A DNA stretch of 58,100 nt. Source: Chloroflexota bacterium (GTDB taxonomy: Bacteria > Chloroflexota > Dehalococcoidia > CAUJGQ01). The stretch lies in contig CAUJGQ010000034.1 in NCBI GenBank assembly GCA_963170165.1, positions 1-58,100 of the forward strand. The letters are read 5' to 3'. Shown here in pieces: positions 1,325 to 37,820 of this stretch (position 1 is its first letter; every line of letters begins with the position of its first letter). Made by a program: the position numbers and the translations under genes. The notes beneath the pieces are model-generated. The model did not search any database. It was given only the letters and a program-made list of their open reading frames with translations, and was not told where the DNA came from.

Positions 1325-1510
1325 ATGGCAGCGTTTGCAGGGACGGCGGCGGACATCCGGCCGCTGGGGCCGGAGCCGGTGACGAGCCCGGTAGGGACAA
1401 TTGGCCCTTGGCCGCCACAGGACCCGCCTAACGAATCTAAAAGAAGTGGCGGGAGCGCATGGGAGTCGAACCCACCCACGACGGCGCGGGCCGCCGTGCA
1501 ACGGTTTTGA
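1325..1510 (+). pseudogene. Start of a phage structural-type gene cut off at the selC junction
   Basis: An ATG at 1325 follows AAGGAGCAGCACAA, a good ribosome site. The first 35 or so residues (beginning MAAFAGTAADIRPLG) look like the N-terminus of a phage capsid or decoration protein, expected directly after a scaffold gene. The frame then runs into the 3' end of the tRNA-Sec gene on the other strand at 1447 and stops inside it at 1510, so the last 20 codons are antisense tRNA and not protein. I interpret it as a gene truncated by integration or by loss of the rest of the element. The phage identity of the fragment is inference. Confidence 0.4.
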
Positions 1511-1544
1511 AGACCGCGGAGACCACCGGGCCCCCTCCGCTCCC
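1447..1544 (-). tRNA. selC: tRNA-Sec (UCA anticodon)
   Basis: On the minus strand the sequence starts GGGAGCGG and ends CGCTCCC-G-CCA, giving a 7-8 bp acceptor stem with encoded CCA at 1447-1449. The anticodon loop is CTTCAAA on a CGGT/ACCG stem, so the anticodon is TCA, which decodes UGA. A long variable arm (ACGGCGG ... CGCCGTC) and a T arm with GGGTTCGACTCCC follow. Length (98 nt), long acceptor and extra arm match bacterial tRNA-Sec and not a suppressor or tRNA-Ser. Its presence means the organism inserts selenocysteine; a likely user is the rhodanese at 36969-37820. The 3' end coincides with the end of the prophage-like segment. selA, selB and selD are not in the window. Confidence 0.93.
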
Positions 1545-1580
1545 AGCCGAGCGTAACAGCCCGGATCTGGCAAGGACAAG

Positions 1581-2558
1581 CTAAGGATGAGGCGCAGCAG
1601 CCGGTGCCGCCGCAGCGCCCGCTTCACGACTACTGGACTCACCACGCTCCTGGTCGCTCAGATAGTGGTCCGCGCGGATGGCAGCGGTGACACCGTCACC
1701 CGTGCTGGTGGCCACCTGCCGTGCAGAGTCAACCCGTACATCGCCCGCCGCGAACAGCCCTGGCACCGCTGTCTCCATCCACCGGCTCACGGGGATGTGG
1801 CCGCCGGTATCGAGCTTCAACATCCCGCCAAGGAAGCCGGTGTTGGGGTGCTGTCCGATGAAGATGAACACTGCCCCTGCGGACAGCGCACGTCTCGCAC
1901 CGGTCTTGACATTGCGGAGTTGGGCGCCGGTGACGCTGTCCTCACCCTCAATCGCCTCAACCACCGTGTCCCAGATGAAGGAGATCTTGGGTTCGGCGAA
2001 GGCGCGCTCCTGCAGGACCCTGCTAGCGCGTAGCGTGTCCCGCCGGTGCACGATGTATACGGCACGGGCGTAGCGGGTGATGAACAGCCCCTCGTCCAGA
2101 GCTGCGTCACCCCCGCCCACGACGATCACGTCCTGTCCGCGGAAGAACGCGGCATCACAGGTGGCACAGTAGGAGACGCCGCGACCGGTGAGCCGGTCTT
2201 CGCCGGGGACGCCCAGGCGGTTGTAGTCGGCCCCGGCGGTGATGATGACAGCGCGGGCCGGCGCATCTCCAGCAGCGGTCCGCAGCCGAAAGCCTCCCGC
2301 CACCTGCTCCAGCGCGGTGACGTCGGCGTACGACGTTTCCAGGCCATACTTCTCCGCCTGGCGGAGCATGGCCTGTCCCAGGTCAAAGCCGTTGACGCCG
2401 TCCGGGAATCCGGGATAGTTCTCGACCAGGCTGGTGAGCGCGATCTGTCCGCCGGTAACCTTGCGCTCCAGCAGTAGGGTTCGGCGGGTGGCACGCGCCG
2501 CATACAGGCCGGCCGCCAGACCGGCCGGCCCGCCACCGATGATCGCGATGTCGTACAT
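1581..2558 (-). CDS. trxB: Thioredoxin-disulfide reductase
   Basis: 325 residues. This cytoplasmic FAD/NADPH flavoenzyme reduces thioredoxin. The N-terminus has the FAD dinucleotide motif IIGGGPAGLAAGLYA (residues 5-20), the redox-active pair CATC in SYCATCDAAFF (about residues 130-140), the NADPH motif VVGGGDAALDEG, and the C-terminal FAD motif GLFAAGDVR. The ATG at 2558 was chosen over an in-frame ATG six codons upstream because the Rossmann strand starts right after it and GAGGCAGCT precedes it. The last 25 or so residues are an Ala/Pro/Ser-rich tail beyond the usual family end. It lies 81 bases downstream of trxA on the same strand, so the thioredoxin pair is probably co-transcribed under the promoter at 3050-3072. 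Confidence 0.93.
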   Translation of the reverse strand: MYDIAIIGGGPAGLAAGLYAARATRRTLLLERKVTGGQIALTSLVENYPGFPDGVNGFDLGQAMLRQAEKYGLETSYADVTALEQVAGGFRLRTAAGDAPARAVIITAGADYNRLGVPGEDRLTGRGVSYCATCDAAFFRGQDVIVVGGGDAALDEGLFITRYARAVYIVHRRDTLRASRVLQERAFAEPKISFIWDTVVEAIEGEDSVTGAQLRNVKTGARRALSAGAVFIFIGQHPNTGFLGGMLKLDTGGHIPVSRWMETAVPGLFAAGDVRVDSARQVATSTGDGVTAAIRADHYLSDQERGESSSREAGAAAAPAAAPHP

Positions 2559-2580
2559 AGCTGCCTCGAAACGCAAAGCA

Positions 2581-2607
2581 GAGACCCGGGCATCGGCCCC
2601 GGGTCCC
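2581..2607 (-). terminator. Hairpin between trxA and trxB
   Basis: GACCCGGG (2583-2590) and CCCGGGTC (2598-2605) form a perfect 8-bp stem with a 7-base loop in the trxA-trxB gap. There is no T-run, so partial attenuation or mRNA stabilisation is more likely than full termination. Confidence 0.45.
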
Positions 2608-2639
2608 TGCGATCGTGAGATTACACCGGGACGAGAAGG

Positions 2640-2966
2640 CTAGCCGAGCACAGCATCCAGCCGCTTCTTCAGGTCGCTCTTGGGCCGAAAGCCGACGATC
2701 TGCCCCTGCATCTCGCCACCCTTAAAGACCATCAGCGTGGGGATGCTGCGGATGCCGTAGCGGGAGGAGACACCGGGATTCTCGTCAGTGTTGAGCTTGT
2801 AGAAGCTGACCTTCCCCTCATACTCGCCGGCCAGCTCTTCCACGATTGGGGCCACCATCCGGCAGGGGCCACACCAGGGCGCCCAGAAGTCCACAAGTAC
2901 CGGCGTGCCGGACTTGATTACATCGCTCTCGAAGCTCTGGTCGGTGACTTCCTTGACTTTCGCCAT
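2640..2966 (-). CDS. trxA: Thioredoxin
   Basis: 108 residues. A single thioredoxin fold with the canonical active site WCGPC in VDFWAPWCGPCRM (about residues 25-37) and the cis-Pro loop RSIPTLMVFK. It is a general cytoplasmic disulfide reductant recycled by the adjacent TrxB. The ATG at 2966 has GGAGAAGGCGAG just upstream and gives the usual family length; the frame is open further upstream, but that part crosses the promoter. It is divergent from the CsoR-type regulator gene, with the operator between them, so its expression is probably linked to copper. Confidence 0.95.
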   Translation of the reverse strand: MAKVKEVTDQSFESDVIKSGTPVLVDFWAPWCGPCRMVAPIVEELAGEYEGKVSFYKLNTDENPGVSSRYGIRSIPTLMVFKGGEMQGQIVGFRPKSDLKKRLDAVLG

Positions 2967-3049
2967 CTCGCCTTCTCCGCTTTGTGCTTGCCGCACCGGC
3001 GCCCGCCCGCGCGAATTGACGGCAGCTACCGGGTCCACTACCATCCTTC

Positions 3050-23654: not shown

Positions 23655-23741
23655 CCGTCCGCGCCTTGCCGGCTGGGCGCCGTGTTACCCACGAGCACAC
23701 GTGCCCGGAAATGCGCAGCACGTACGCGAAGGATGTACGCA

Positions 23742-26459
23742 GTGGCGACGATCACGATTGACGGCAAGACCGTGACCTGCCCGGATGGCGCAACACTGCT
23801 CGAAGTCTGCAAAGACGCGGGCGCGTACATGTCGGCACTGTGCTACATCGATGGCCTGCCGCCGTACGCCGGCTGCCGGTCTTGCCTGGTCGAGGTGGAA
23901 GGCGGCCGCGGGCTGCAACTGTCTTGCACCACCAAGGTCACTGACGGCATGGTAGTGCGCACCACCACAGACGAAGTCCGTGAGGGGCGTAAGGCGGTCG
24001 TTTCCATCATCCTCGCCAACCACTCCGATCGCTGCCTCACCTGCCATCGCCGCGAGCATTGTCACCCCGGCGACATCTGCCTGCGCGACGACGTCGTCAC
24101 ACACCGCTGCGTCACCTGCCCCAAGAACTATCGCTGCGAGCTGCAAGCCACCTGCGAGATGGTGGGCATGTCCTCCTACGAACCGTGGGAGGGTGAGGCA
24201 CGCTCGTTCTACAGCATGCCGGAGCACCCCCCGGCCGACCGGGCCAACCCTTTTCTCGAGTTCGACCCGAAGATGTGCATTATCTGCACGCGCTGCGTCC
24301 GCGCTTGCGACGAACTGCGCCACACCGGCGCCATCACCCTGGCCGGTCGTGGCTTCTCGACTCGCATCGCCTTCGGCGCCGGTGGCCGCATCGATGAATC
24401 CAACTGCGACTACTGCGGCGCCTGTATCGATGTCTGCCCCACGGCCACGTTGCTGGAGTCGCCGCACAAGTGGACATCCCGCCCGGATGCCTGGGTGGAG
24501 ACGGTCTGCCCGTACTGCTCGGTCGGCTGCACCATCAAGCTGGCGGTCAAGGATGGTAGGGGCGTGATGGTTCGCCCCAGCAAGATCAACCCCGTCAGCT
24601 GGGATCAGATCTGTGTACGCGGCCGCTTCCACTATGACGCGCTGAAGGCGCGCGACTATCTCAAGTCCCCGCTCATCCGCCGGGGTGACGTGATGGCGCC
24701 CATCTCGTGGGATGAGGCTATCGCCACCACTGCCACCCGCCTGGCCGAGATCATCCGCCAGCACGGCGCAAGTGCCGCCGGTGTGCTGGCCGGGCCGCTG
24801 CTGATGAACGAGGAGGCGTACACGGCCCAGAAGCTGGCGCGCGCCGTGCTAGGTACCAACAACATCGACTCCACCAGCGGCGCCGTCGCGCGGGCCACGG
24901 CGGCGGCGGTGCGGGGCGCCTTCGGTACCGAAGCCCTCCCGGCCGACATGACCAGCTTCCGTACCGCAACACACATCCTCGTCGTGGGTGACGACCTAGA
25001 GCAAGCGCATCCGGTTGCAGCACTGCGCCTTAAGGACGCCGTTACCTACAACCGCGCCCGACTGGTGACCGTCTCCCCACGCTGGACGGAGATGGTGGAC
25101 TTCGCCGGCGCCTGGCTGCGACCAGCCCCTGGCGACGAAGGAGCCACGCTCAGCGCCCTGGTACGAGCACTCCTGGGAGATCCCGAGCGGCGGCAGGCCC
25201 TCACGGCATCTGGCGTTGGTGGCGTCGCCCAGTTTGCCGGAGGCGCGACCAGCGACCTGGATGGCTTTGCTGATGCGCTGGCGATCCTGCGCGAAGCCGC
25301 CGCCATGGGCGAGCAGGCGCGTGTTGCCATCGTCTTCGCCCCCACGCCGGTCAACGCCTGGATGCAGGGTGAGATCGCCCGAGCCGCTGCTAACCTGGCA
25401 ATCGCCGTCTGCGGACCAGAGCGCGCCGCGGAGTCGCTGTTTGTCATGCCGCCGGACATCAACAGCAACGGCCTGCGCGACCTGGGCGTCACGCCGGACA
25501 TGCTTCCCGGTCATCAGCCGGCAGATGATGCACAGGCTCGCACAAGTCTCGAGCGGAGCTGGGGCGGTTCGATCCCGGCTTCGGCCGGTCAGACGCTGGC
25601 ACAGATGCTCGCGGCGGCGCGCGCGGGTACGCTCAAGGCGCTGGTGGTCATCGGCGACAACCCTTTGCTGACCTCCCCGGACAAGGCGGGGGTTCGCGCC
25701 GCACTGGAGGCGCTCGACCTGCTGGTGGTGATTGACGCCACCATGACGGATACCGCCGAACTGGCGCACATTGTCCTGGCCGACGCCGATGTGTACGGCA
25801 AGGCCGGCAGCTACACCACCGCAGACCGGCGGGTGCTGCGCCGGAACGCGGCCACGGTACCGGCAGGCGCCGCACGCCCCGCGCTCACCACACTCGCAGC
25901 ACTGGGCACACGCCTGGCCGCCGAGCGTGGCCTGAACATCAGCTTCGCAGGCGAACCACAGGCGGTGATGGCCGAGATCGCCGCGCTGACGCCGCTGTAT
26001 GCCGGCAGCCGGTACGACGAAATGCTGCAGAGCAGCCGGCAGCAGATGTTCGATGGTGCGGCCGGCCGGCCGGCGCCGCAGTTGATCCAGCTCGGCGACC
26101 GCACCACCCGGCAACCGGATGCCCTGGGCCTGGCGCTGATGACCGGCCGCGGCCAGTTCACCAGCCTGGAGGCCGCGGCCCTCCACCGCCGTGACGCCGA
26201 CAAGCTGCACCGCGAGGAATACCTGGAAGTCAGCCCCGAGGATGCGCAGCGCTTGGGCATCAATGACGGCGATGAAGTGACTCTCCAGAGCGAGCAAGGC
26301 GCACTCACCATGCGCGCCCGTGTGACCGACGCCCAGCCGCAGGGAGCGGTCTGGGCGCCGCTCCTGTGGGATGGCGGCGCGGTCACCGCCCTGCTGGGCG
26401 CGGAGAACGGCCCCGCCCCGCAGGTGCAGGTGCGGGTGCGTACGCCGGCGCGCGCCTGA
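23742..26459 (+). CDS. NuoG/FdhA-like molybdopterin oxidoreductase-fold protein lacking the Mo-ligating Cys/Sec
   Basis: 905 residues from the GTG at 23742 (after GAAGGATGTACGCA; an ATG at 23733 is the alternative). The N-terminal [2Fe-2S] ferredoxin has C34, C45, C48 and C62. A His/Cys motif follows, apparently twice: H94-C98-C101-C107, then H121-C123-C126-C132 ending in CELQ. Two [4Fe-4S] motifs come next (CIICTRCVRAC; CDYCGACIDVC), then a third (CPYCSVGC) at the head of the molybdopterin domain. The usual Mo-ligand position, (H/D)-x-C/U, reads NNIDSTSGAVARATAAAV, with no Cys or Sec and no in-frame TGA. So it resembles NuoG, in which the Mo site is dead, but with formate-dehydrogenase-like full length. 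Role: probably electron transfer with the NuoI-like protein. A C-terminal molybdopterin-binding domain is present. Confidence 0.85.
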   Translation: MATITIDGKTVTCPDGATLLEVCKDAGAYMSALCYIDGLPPYAGCRSCLVEVEGGRGLQLSCTTKVTDGMVVRTTTDEVREGRKAVVSIILANHSDRCLTCHRREHCHPGDICLRDDVVTHRCVTCPKNYRCELQATCEMVGMSSYEPWEGEARSFYSMPEHPPADRANPFLEFDPKMCIICTRCVRACDELRHTGAITLAGRGFSTRIAFGAGGRIDESNCDYCGACIDVCPTATLLESPHKWTSRPDAWVETVCPYCSVGCTIKLAVKDGRGVMVRPSKINPVSWDQICVRGRFHYDALKARDYLKSPLIRRGDVMAPISWDEAIATTATRLAEIIRQHGASAAGVLAGPLLMNEEAYTAQKLARAVLGTNNIDSTSGAVARATAAAVRGAFGTEALPADMTSFRTATHILVVGDDLEQAHPVAALRLKDAVTYNRARLVTVSPRWTEMVDFAGAWLRPAPGDEGATLSALVRALLGDPERRQALTASGVGGVAQFAGGATSDLDGFADALAILREAAAMGEQARVAIVFAPTPVNAWMQGEIARAAANLAIAVCGPERAAESLFVMPPDINSNGLRDLGVTPDMLPGHQPADDAQARTSLERSWGGSIPASAGQTLAQMLAAARAGTLKALVVIGDNPLLTSPDKAGVRAALEALDLLVVIDATMTDTAELAHIVLADADVYGKAGSYTTADRRVLRRNAATVPAGAARPALTTLAALGTRLAAERGLNISFAGEPQAVMAEIAALTPLYAGSRYDEMLQSSRQQMFDGAAGRPAPQLIQLGDRTTRQPDALGLALMTGRGQFTSLEAAALHRRDADKLHREEYLEVSPEDAQRLGINDGDEVTLQSEQGALTMRARVTDAQPQGAVWAPLLWDGGAVTALLGAENGPAPQVQVRVRTPARA

Positions 26460-36968: not shown

Positions 36969-37820
36969 TCAGGAGGCCGGCGCCGGCTCCATCACCAGCG
37001 GGGTATCATCGCGGTTGGCCCATTCGCGCATCGAGCCGTCGTACATCTTGATACGGTCGTAGCCAAGCAGGGAGAGGACGAATGCTCCGTGCGCCGCACG
37101 GATACCACCCTGTCAGTACGTGGCTACTTCCTGCTCGGGGTTAATGCCGGCCTCGCGCAGCATGGCGCGCAGCTCAGAGGCAGGCTTGAACACTCGGCGG
37201 TCATCTCGCGTCACGAAGTTCAGCCACTCCAGATGCACCGCGCCCGGCACATGCCCGGTGCGCTTGTTGCCGCGGTCGTTGGTGCCCAACCACTCCTCGT
37301 CGGTGCGCAGATCGAGGATGGCGCTGCCTTCTCGCCCCACCATCGCCTTCAGCTCGTCGATCTTGCAGACGATGGCGTCGTTGGCGGGCTTGACGGTGAA
37401 GTTGCCGGCGGCGGGCCGGGCCTGGTGGAATGTCGCGGGCCGTCCCTCGGTGAGCCAGCGATGCCAGCCACCGTTGAGCACCTTGGTATTGGTGTGGCCG
37501 TAGTAGTTCAGCACCCACCACAAGCGTGCCGCCACCAGCGCGTTGTTGTCGTCGTAGGTGACGACGGTCGTGTCGTCCGAGACGCCCAGCCGCCGCATCA
37601 ATTCCTGGAACTGCTCGGGCTGCATGACGTAGGTATCGTTGGTGGGGTCCTTGATATAGAAGTGAACCGGTAGCCCCACCGCCCCCGGGATATGCGCCCG
37701 CCGGTAAGCCTCCAGTGTGACGCAATCAATGATCCGTACCTTGGGATCGTCCAGGTGCTGCGCCAGCCAGTCTGGCTCGGCCAGCAACTCCGGGCGGGCG
37801 TACCCAGCATCCGCCGTCAT
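36969..37820 (-). CDS. Two-domain rhodanese (thiosulfate sulfurtransferase) with in-frame TGA at the catalytic Cys: predicted selenoprotein
   Basis: 283 residues from the ATG at 37820 (AAAGGAG 8 bases upstream) to TGA at 36969-36971. A conventional reading stops at an earlier TGA (37113-37115), codon 236. The sequence around it reads QEVATY-U-QGGIRAAHGAF. In two-domain rhodaneses this position is the catalytic Cys (CRxGxRA type loop), and homology continues past the TGA (LLGYDRIKMYDGSMREW, NRDDTPLV) to the normal family end. The first domain (about residues 10-125) has TYDDNNA where a catalytic Cys would be, so it is the inactive structural domain. tRNA-Sec is in the window, and a SECIS-like hairpin follows the TGA. 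Alternative: a sequencing error TGC/TGT to TGA, or a nonsense mutation. Neighbours: FkbM gene upstream by 67 bases. Confidence 0.85.
37086..37102 (-). promoter_or_regulatory. Candidate bacterial SECIS element in the rhodanese mRNA
   Basis: Minus strand: TCCGTGC-GGC-GCACGGA, a perfect 7-bp stem with a three-base loop starting GG. The stem starts 11 bases and the loop 18 bases after the UGA. Bacterial SECIS elements are short stem-loops just after the UGA with a G in the first two loop positions and the loop roughly 16-37 bases downstream, so spacing and loop fit. Confidence 0.7.

Follow-up and report, generated by a model that had tools for sequence, protein, structure and literature searches.

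A predicted selenocysteine form of a two-domain rhodanese, with its SECIS hairpin inside the coding sequence, in a Chloroflexota genome

We analyzed a gene on the minus strand of a 58,100-nucleotide stretch of Chloroflexota DNA (hereafter, the window; all positions are those of the whole stretch unless a locus is named). The gene (36969..37820, minus strand) very probably encodes a two-domain rhodanese of the SseA/COG2897 type in which hairpin-directed decoding of a UGA codon places selenocysteine (Sec) at residue 236 and which likely functions in sulfur transfer; this reading is the best explanation of the data considered below. Insertion of Sec at codon 236 appears almost certain, judging from the codon, the hairpin, their conservation among homologues, and the genes of the Sec machinery. 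The gene is a further case of a Sec rhodanese type predicted since 2005, not a new type.

The reading frame starts with ATG at 37820, with an AGGAG Shine–Dalgarno motif 8 nt upstream. Translation with TGA read as Sec gave a protein of 283 aa and bore out what an earlier note on this DNA had described: the TGA at 37113..37115 (minus strand) is codon 236 and is followed by 47 further codons up to a normal stop, a second TGA (36969..36971, minus strand); homologues end at similar positions. The Pfam Rhodanese model (PF00581) matched the protein with an E-value of 5.5e-39, with one domain in each half. The N-terminal domain (37449..37775, minus strand) is non-catalytic by alignment with the Thermus thermophilus rhodanese 1UAR, the sequence YDDNN replacing the Cys loop. 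The C-terminal domain (37014..37358, minus strand) has the single TGA inside and carries the catalytic residue and the active loop U236-Q-G-G-I-R, which is the arrangement of a two-domain rhodanese.

Among solved structures, 1UAR was the closest by sequence (E = 4.4e-53), and its active-site Cys aligns with codon 236. An AlphaFold model, calculated with Cys placed at residue 236, had a pLDDT of 95.5, and its best PDB match was again 1uar (TM 0.89). In the model, strand 231–235 leads into the loop 236–239 and then the helix 240–251, so that the modelled position of residue 236 is that of the rhodanese active loop. Three other two-domain rhodaneses were encoded in the same genome, all of them with Cys; Sec is therefore special to the rhodanese of the window. 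The genes flanking it, for an FkbM-type methyltransferase and an SNF2 helicase, include no operon partner that would indicate a pathway.

A hairpin of the SECIS type (37086..37102, minus strand), UCCGUGC-GGC-GCACGGA, was identified by folding and is supported by conservation and compensatory changes. It spans nucleotides 11–27 after the TGA, with a perfect 7-bp stem and a 3-nt loop starting with GG, in agreement with the note's description, and its apical loop lies 17 nt past the UGA. With 7 bp, the loop GGC, and 17-nt spacing, it falls within the published limits for bacterial SECIS elements (PMC13188914). The 38-nt stretch containing the hairpin had a folding energy of −14.3 kcal/mol; against dinucleotide shuffles, the energy of the hairpin gave z values of −0.9 to −2.1, too little to be informative for a single sequence. 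We also generated synonymous recodings, in which the protein sequence was fixed and codons were sampled from the usage of the window. Against these, the folding energy of the stretch was average; the six core pairs arose by chance in 4.7% of the recodings and all seven in 1.1%. The argument of the note that an error would not create such a hairpin is thus weak when made without a comparison of homologues. In one GC-rich sequence, the hairpin is modest evidence by itself; the comparison across homologues is decisive.

For that comparison we gathered 101 distinct homologous stretches that include codon 236, the stretch of the window being counted among the TGA forms. Codon 236 was TGA in 61 of them and TGC or TGT in the other 40, and together with the alignment to 1UAR these homologues support the proposal that Sec occupies the position of the catalytic Cys; both the Cys homologues and the Sec homologues that the note had named as a check were found, the latter numerous and with a conserved SECIS element. 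The conservation counts given here take in closely related sequences, and for a few loci the same species may have been sampled in two collections. The five inner stem pairs were kept in 61/61 TGA forms and 0/40 Cys forms, and the loop was GGC or GUC in every TGA form. Codon choice within the stem was invariant among TGA forms: R241 was CGT in 61/61, A242 was GCG in 60/60, A243 was GCG in 54/54, and H244 was CAC in 60/60. Cys relatives, by comparison, use several codons in the stem region, and only 1 of 26 close Cys forms encodes R241 as CGT. Codons immediately outside the stem were variable in TGA and Cys forms alike.

Compensatory double changes were observed at two stem pairs: C-G to G-C in 9/57 sequences and G-C to U-A in 1/57. 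The latter sequence (L096) replaces Ala by Ser together with His by Asn. The covariation score of the stem exceeded those of all 500 shuffles and of the slid controls. Since the hairpin sits within the coding region, its outer stem pair joins codons 240 and 245. Residues 240/245 in the 61 TGA forms were I/G (46), V/A (9), I/V (4), V/G (1), and L/G (1), never I/A, which is the commonest combination in the Cys forms (10/40). A 28-nt pattern of the SECIS element had matches in 13 of 400 Chloroflexota genomes, one in each and all inside this rhodanese gene: 12 were genes already aligned and the thirteenth lay within a rhodanese match of genome G137. The reversed pattern had no match in the same 400 genomes. 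One contig carried two Sec rhodanese genes close to each other (L085:4087 and L085:5703), each with the TGA and the hairpin.

These data bear directly on whether the TGA could be a sequencing error or a nonsense mutation in what is really a Cys rhodanese or a pseudogene. In favour of such an origin, the assembly is a draft and the nearest relatives in the tree are all Cys forms. However, the gene of the window has the SECIS element of distant TGA forms, which none of its Cys neighbours has, the frame downstream of the TGA is intact and family-like, and the genome holds a full Sec system; we consider an error or nonsense mutation extremely improbable.

The Sec system was encoded as follows. The gene for tRNA-Sec (selC, anticodon TCA; 1447..1544, minus strand), reported in the note, was recovered by ARAGORN and by Rfam (RF01852, 70.1 bits, cut-off 47). 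Genes for SelA (503 bits), SelB (318 bits, above the cut-off), and SelD (355 bits), which the note had proposed to look for, were all found in the genome, a draft of 213 contigs, on contigs other than that of the window. The selD gene (L118:1483-2500) has an in-frame TGA of its own at codon 17, in MTRDQVRLTTMVSCGGU; the TGA of SCGGU is at the site of Sec in known Sec-type SelD proteins. Both selB and tRNA-Sec were present in 12/12 tested genomes with a TGA form of the rhodanese, and the four tested genomes lacking selB (G226, G146, G202, G098) all had Cys forms.

Adjacent to the tRNA-Sec gene of the window (1447-3044, minus strand), genes for a thioredoxin (CGPC) and then a thioredoxin reductase were found, the tRNA-Sec following 37 nt after the reductase. 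In 9 of the 16 genomes examined, this one included, tRNA-Sec had a thioredoxin gene no more than about 1.5 kb away; a reductase match near tRNA-Sec was found in the window alone among these 16. The window also encodes a 925-aa ORF (23682-26459, plus strand) similar to the formate dehydrogenase alpha family, although its 359 bits fall short of the family cut-off. It has no in-frame stop and so does not seem to be a Sec form.

A tree of 99 proteins required at least 5 changes between the Sec and Cys states, far below the number in shuffles. The gene of the window grouped, with strong support (100/97), with 20 Cys forms, including that of Tepidiforma, and no other member of this group was a Sec form. 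The placement in Thermomicrobia suggested by the note proved wrong: rhodaneses from genomes of the same class group with those of Tepidiforma and SAR202-type Chloroflexota. The nested position raises the question of whether Sec was retained from an ancestor, or was re-gained from Cys or brought in when the catalytic domain was swapped by recombination. By parsimony, retention of Sec with two losses costs the same as one loss with one re-gain, and the SECIS element shared with distant Sec forms favours retention or recombination over new invention. The diagnostic residues are those of the Cys clade by 10 to 1 in the N-terminal half and those of the Sec clade by 4 to 0 in the C-terminal half, which hints at a mosaic gene, as would be expected after recombination; separate trees of the two halves, however, both placed the gene beside the Cys clade, with no significant conflict. 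Re-gain or recombination is, in our estimate, a possible though doubtful origin of the Sec form of the window.

Sec rhodaneses were also found in records outside Chloroflexota: some labelled Binatota, among them two assembled chromosomes (L058, L072), two labelled Deltaproteobacteria (L060, L063), and one of Tectomicrobia (L102). Those included in the tree, the Binatota forms among them, nest within the Chloroflexota forms, which suggests inter-phylum transfer; for the records that are fragments, errors of binning are the likely alternative. A megablast search with one Cys relative found no match among phages.

Sec rhodaneses of this type have been predicted repeatedly. A Sec COG2897 rhodanese was among 15 new selenoprotein families predicted from the Sargasso Sea, with three sequences and a drawn SECIS element (PMC1088965, 2005); it was predicted again in GOS data, with eight sequences assigned to cd01449 (PMC2398784, 2008), was listed as COG2897 SseA in a 2022 review (PMC9312934), and appears as "rhodanese-like form 4" with the motif UxxG in a 2026 review (PMC13188914). 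Rhodanese is not mentioned in the deep-Sep paper (PMC12013277). In the literature found, these proteins stand as predictions, without biochemical tests. The gene of the window shares with the published form 4 the two domains, an active-loop Sec whose sequence UQGG conforms to UxxG, and, directly downstream, a bacterial SECIS element; we found no feature separating it from the published Sec COG2897 rhodaneses, the likeness being judged from published descriptions of motif and architecture.

1UAR and the SseA, CysA2, and CysA3 proteins of M. tuberculosis have the same two-domain fold (TM 0.87–0.89), but carry Cys at the position of Sec236 and the loop CRIAER or CRIGER instead of UQGGIR. The "rhodanese-related (seleno)protein" family NF041203 (CxU) shares a rhodanese domain and Sec and differs in Sec motif or architecture; the protein of the window scored 35.3 bits against its cut-off of 115, with the match in the N-terminal domain. 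The same holds for the TsoB rhodanese/DsbD fusion (UxxxxU) and the other forms in PMC13188914, which have a rhodanese domain and Sec, with a different Sec motif or architecture. The 3-mercaptopyruvate sulfurtransferase of E. coli, SseA (1URH), belongs to the same two-domain rhodanese family; with the corresponding equivalog model (NF008557) our protein scored 142.8 bits, below the cut-off of 250.

From the fold and the active loop we infer sulfur transfer as the activity of the protein. SelB carrying Sec-tRNA-Sec would bind the hairpin, which begins 11 nt past the UGA, and deliver Sec at this codon. The residue lies at the tip of the C-terminal active loop, in the place of the catalytic Cys of relatives. 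Sec236 would then most likely accept sulfane sulfur from thiosulfate, a persulfide, or a similar donor, forming a selenenyl persulfide (Se-S-H). By the chemistry of the family, this sulfur would be handed on to a thiol acceptor, and thioredoxin is a plausible reductant. The hairpin, being inside the coding sequence, at the same time dictates the choice among synonymous codons and some of the residues in the active-site helix.

Concerning gene context in other genomes, no gene family was common to the Sec loci overall. In 15 loci of one SAR202 branch (e.g., L087:1483-2643), the next gene downstream of the Sec rhodanese, on the same strand, is arylsulfotransferase-like (PF05935). It is absent beside the rhodanese of the window, and it therefore does not explain the function there.

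Two other roles for a Sec-containing enzyme were weighed against sulfur transfer. The enzyme might act mainly as a thiol/selenol oxidoreductase or peroxide scavenger, with Cys152 (37365..37367, minus strand) resolving oxidised Sec236. Most selenoproteins of known role are indeed oxidoreductases (PMC2398784, PMC9312934), and Cys152 is commoner in Sec forms (39/59) than in Cys forms (4/40); it is missing, however, from the remaining 20 of the 59 Sec forms, and the protein has the active loop and two-domain layout of sulfurtransferases, so that this role seems unlikely to us. The enzyme might instead handle selenium itself, for example by delivering selenide as perselenide to SelD, given that selenium binds to both rhodanese and mercaptopyruvate sulfurtransferase in vitro and that the two have been debated as selenium carriers (PMC8538045, PMC9369223). 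Many of the selB-bearing Chloroflexota examined lack this Sec gene, though, the sel genes of our genome lie on other contigs, and the proposal is circular, requiring a selenoprotein for selenoprotein synthesis; we judge it very improbable.

Alongside the preferred assignment of sulfur transfer, the counts for Cys152 allow a more speculative proposal, namely that this residue may be a second redox residue. If true, Sec236 would work with Cys152, which accompanies Sec in the main clade, and the rhodanese scaffold would carry a thioredoxin-linked selenenyl-sulfide redox enzyme; a lineage that lost Sec would have lost Cys152 as well and returned to plain sulfur transfer. We put this forward as a long shot.

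For the family, the TGA forms provide an example of an RNA element within a coding region strict enough to freeze codons and to couple two residues of the active-site helix. The 61 Sec and 40 Cys stretches, with a few switches on one tree, offer natural Sec/Cys pairs of about 65% identity with which to ask what selenium contributes to sulfur transfer.
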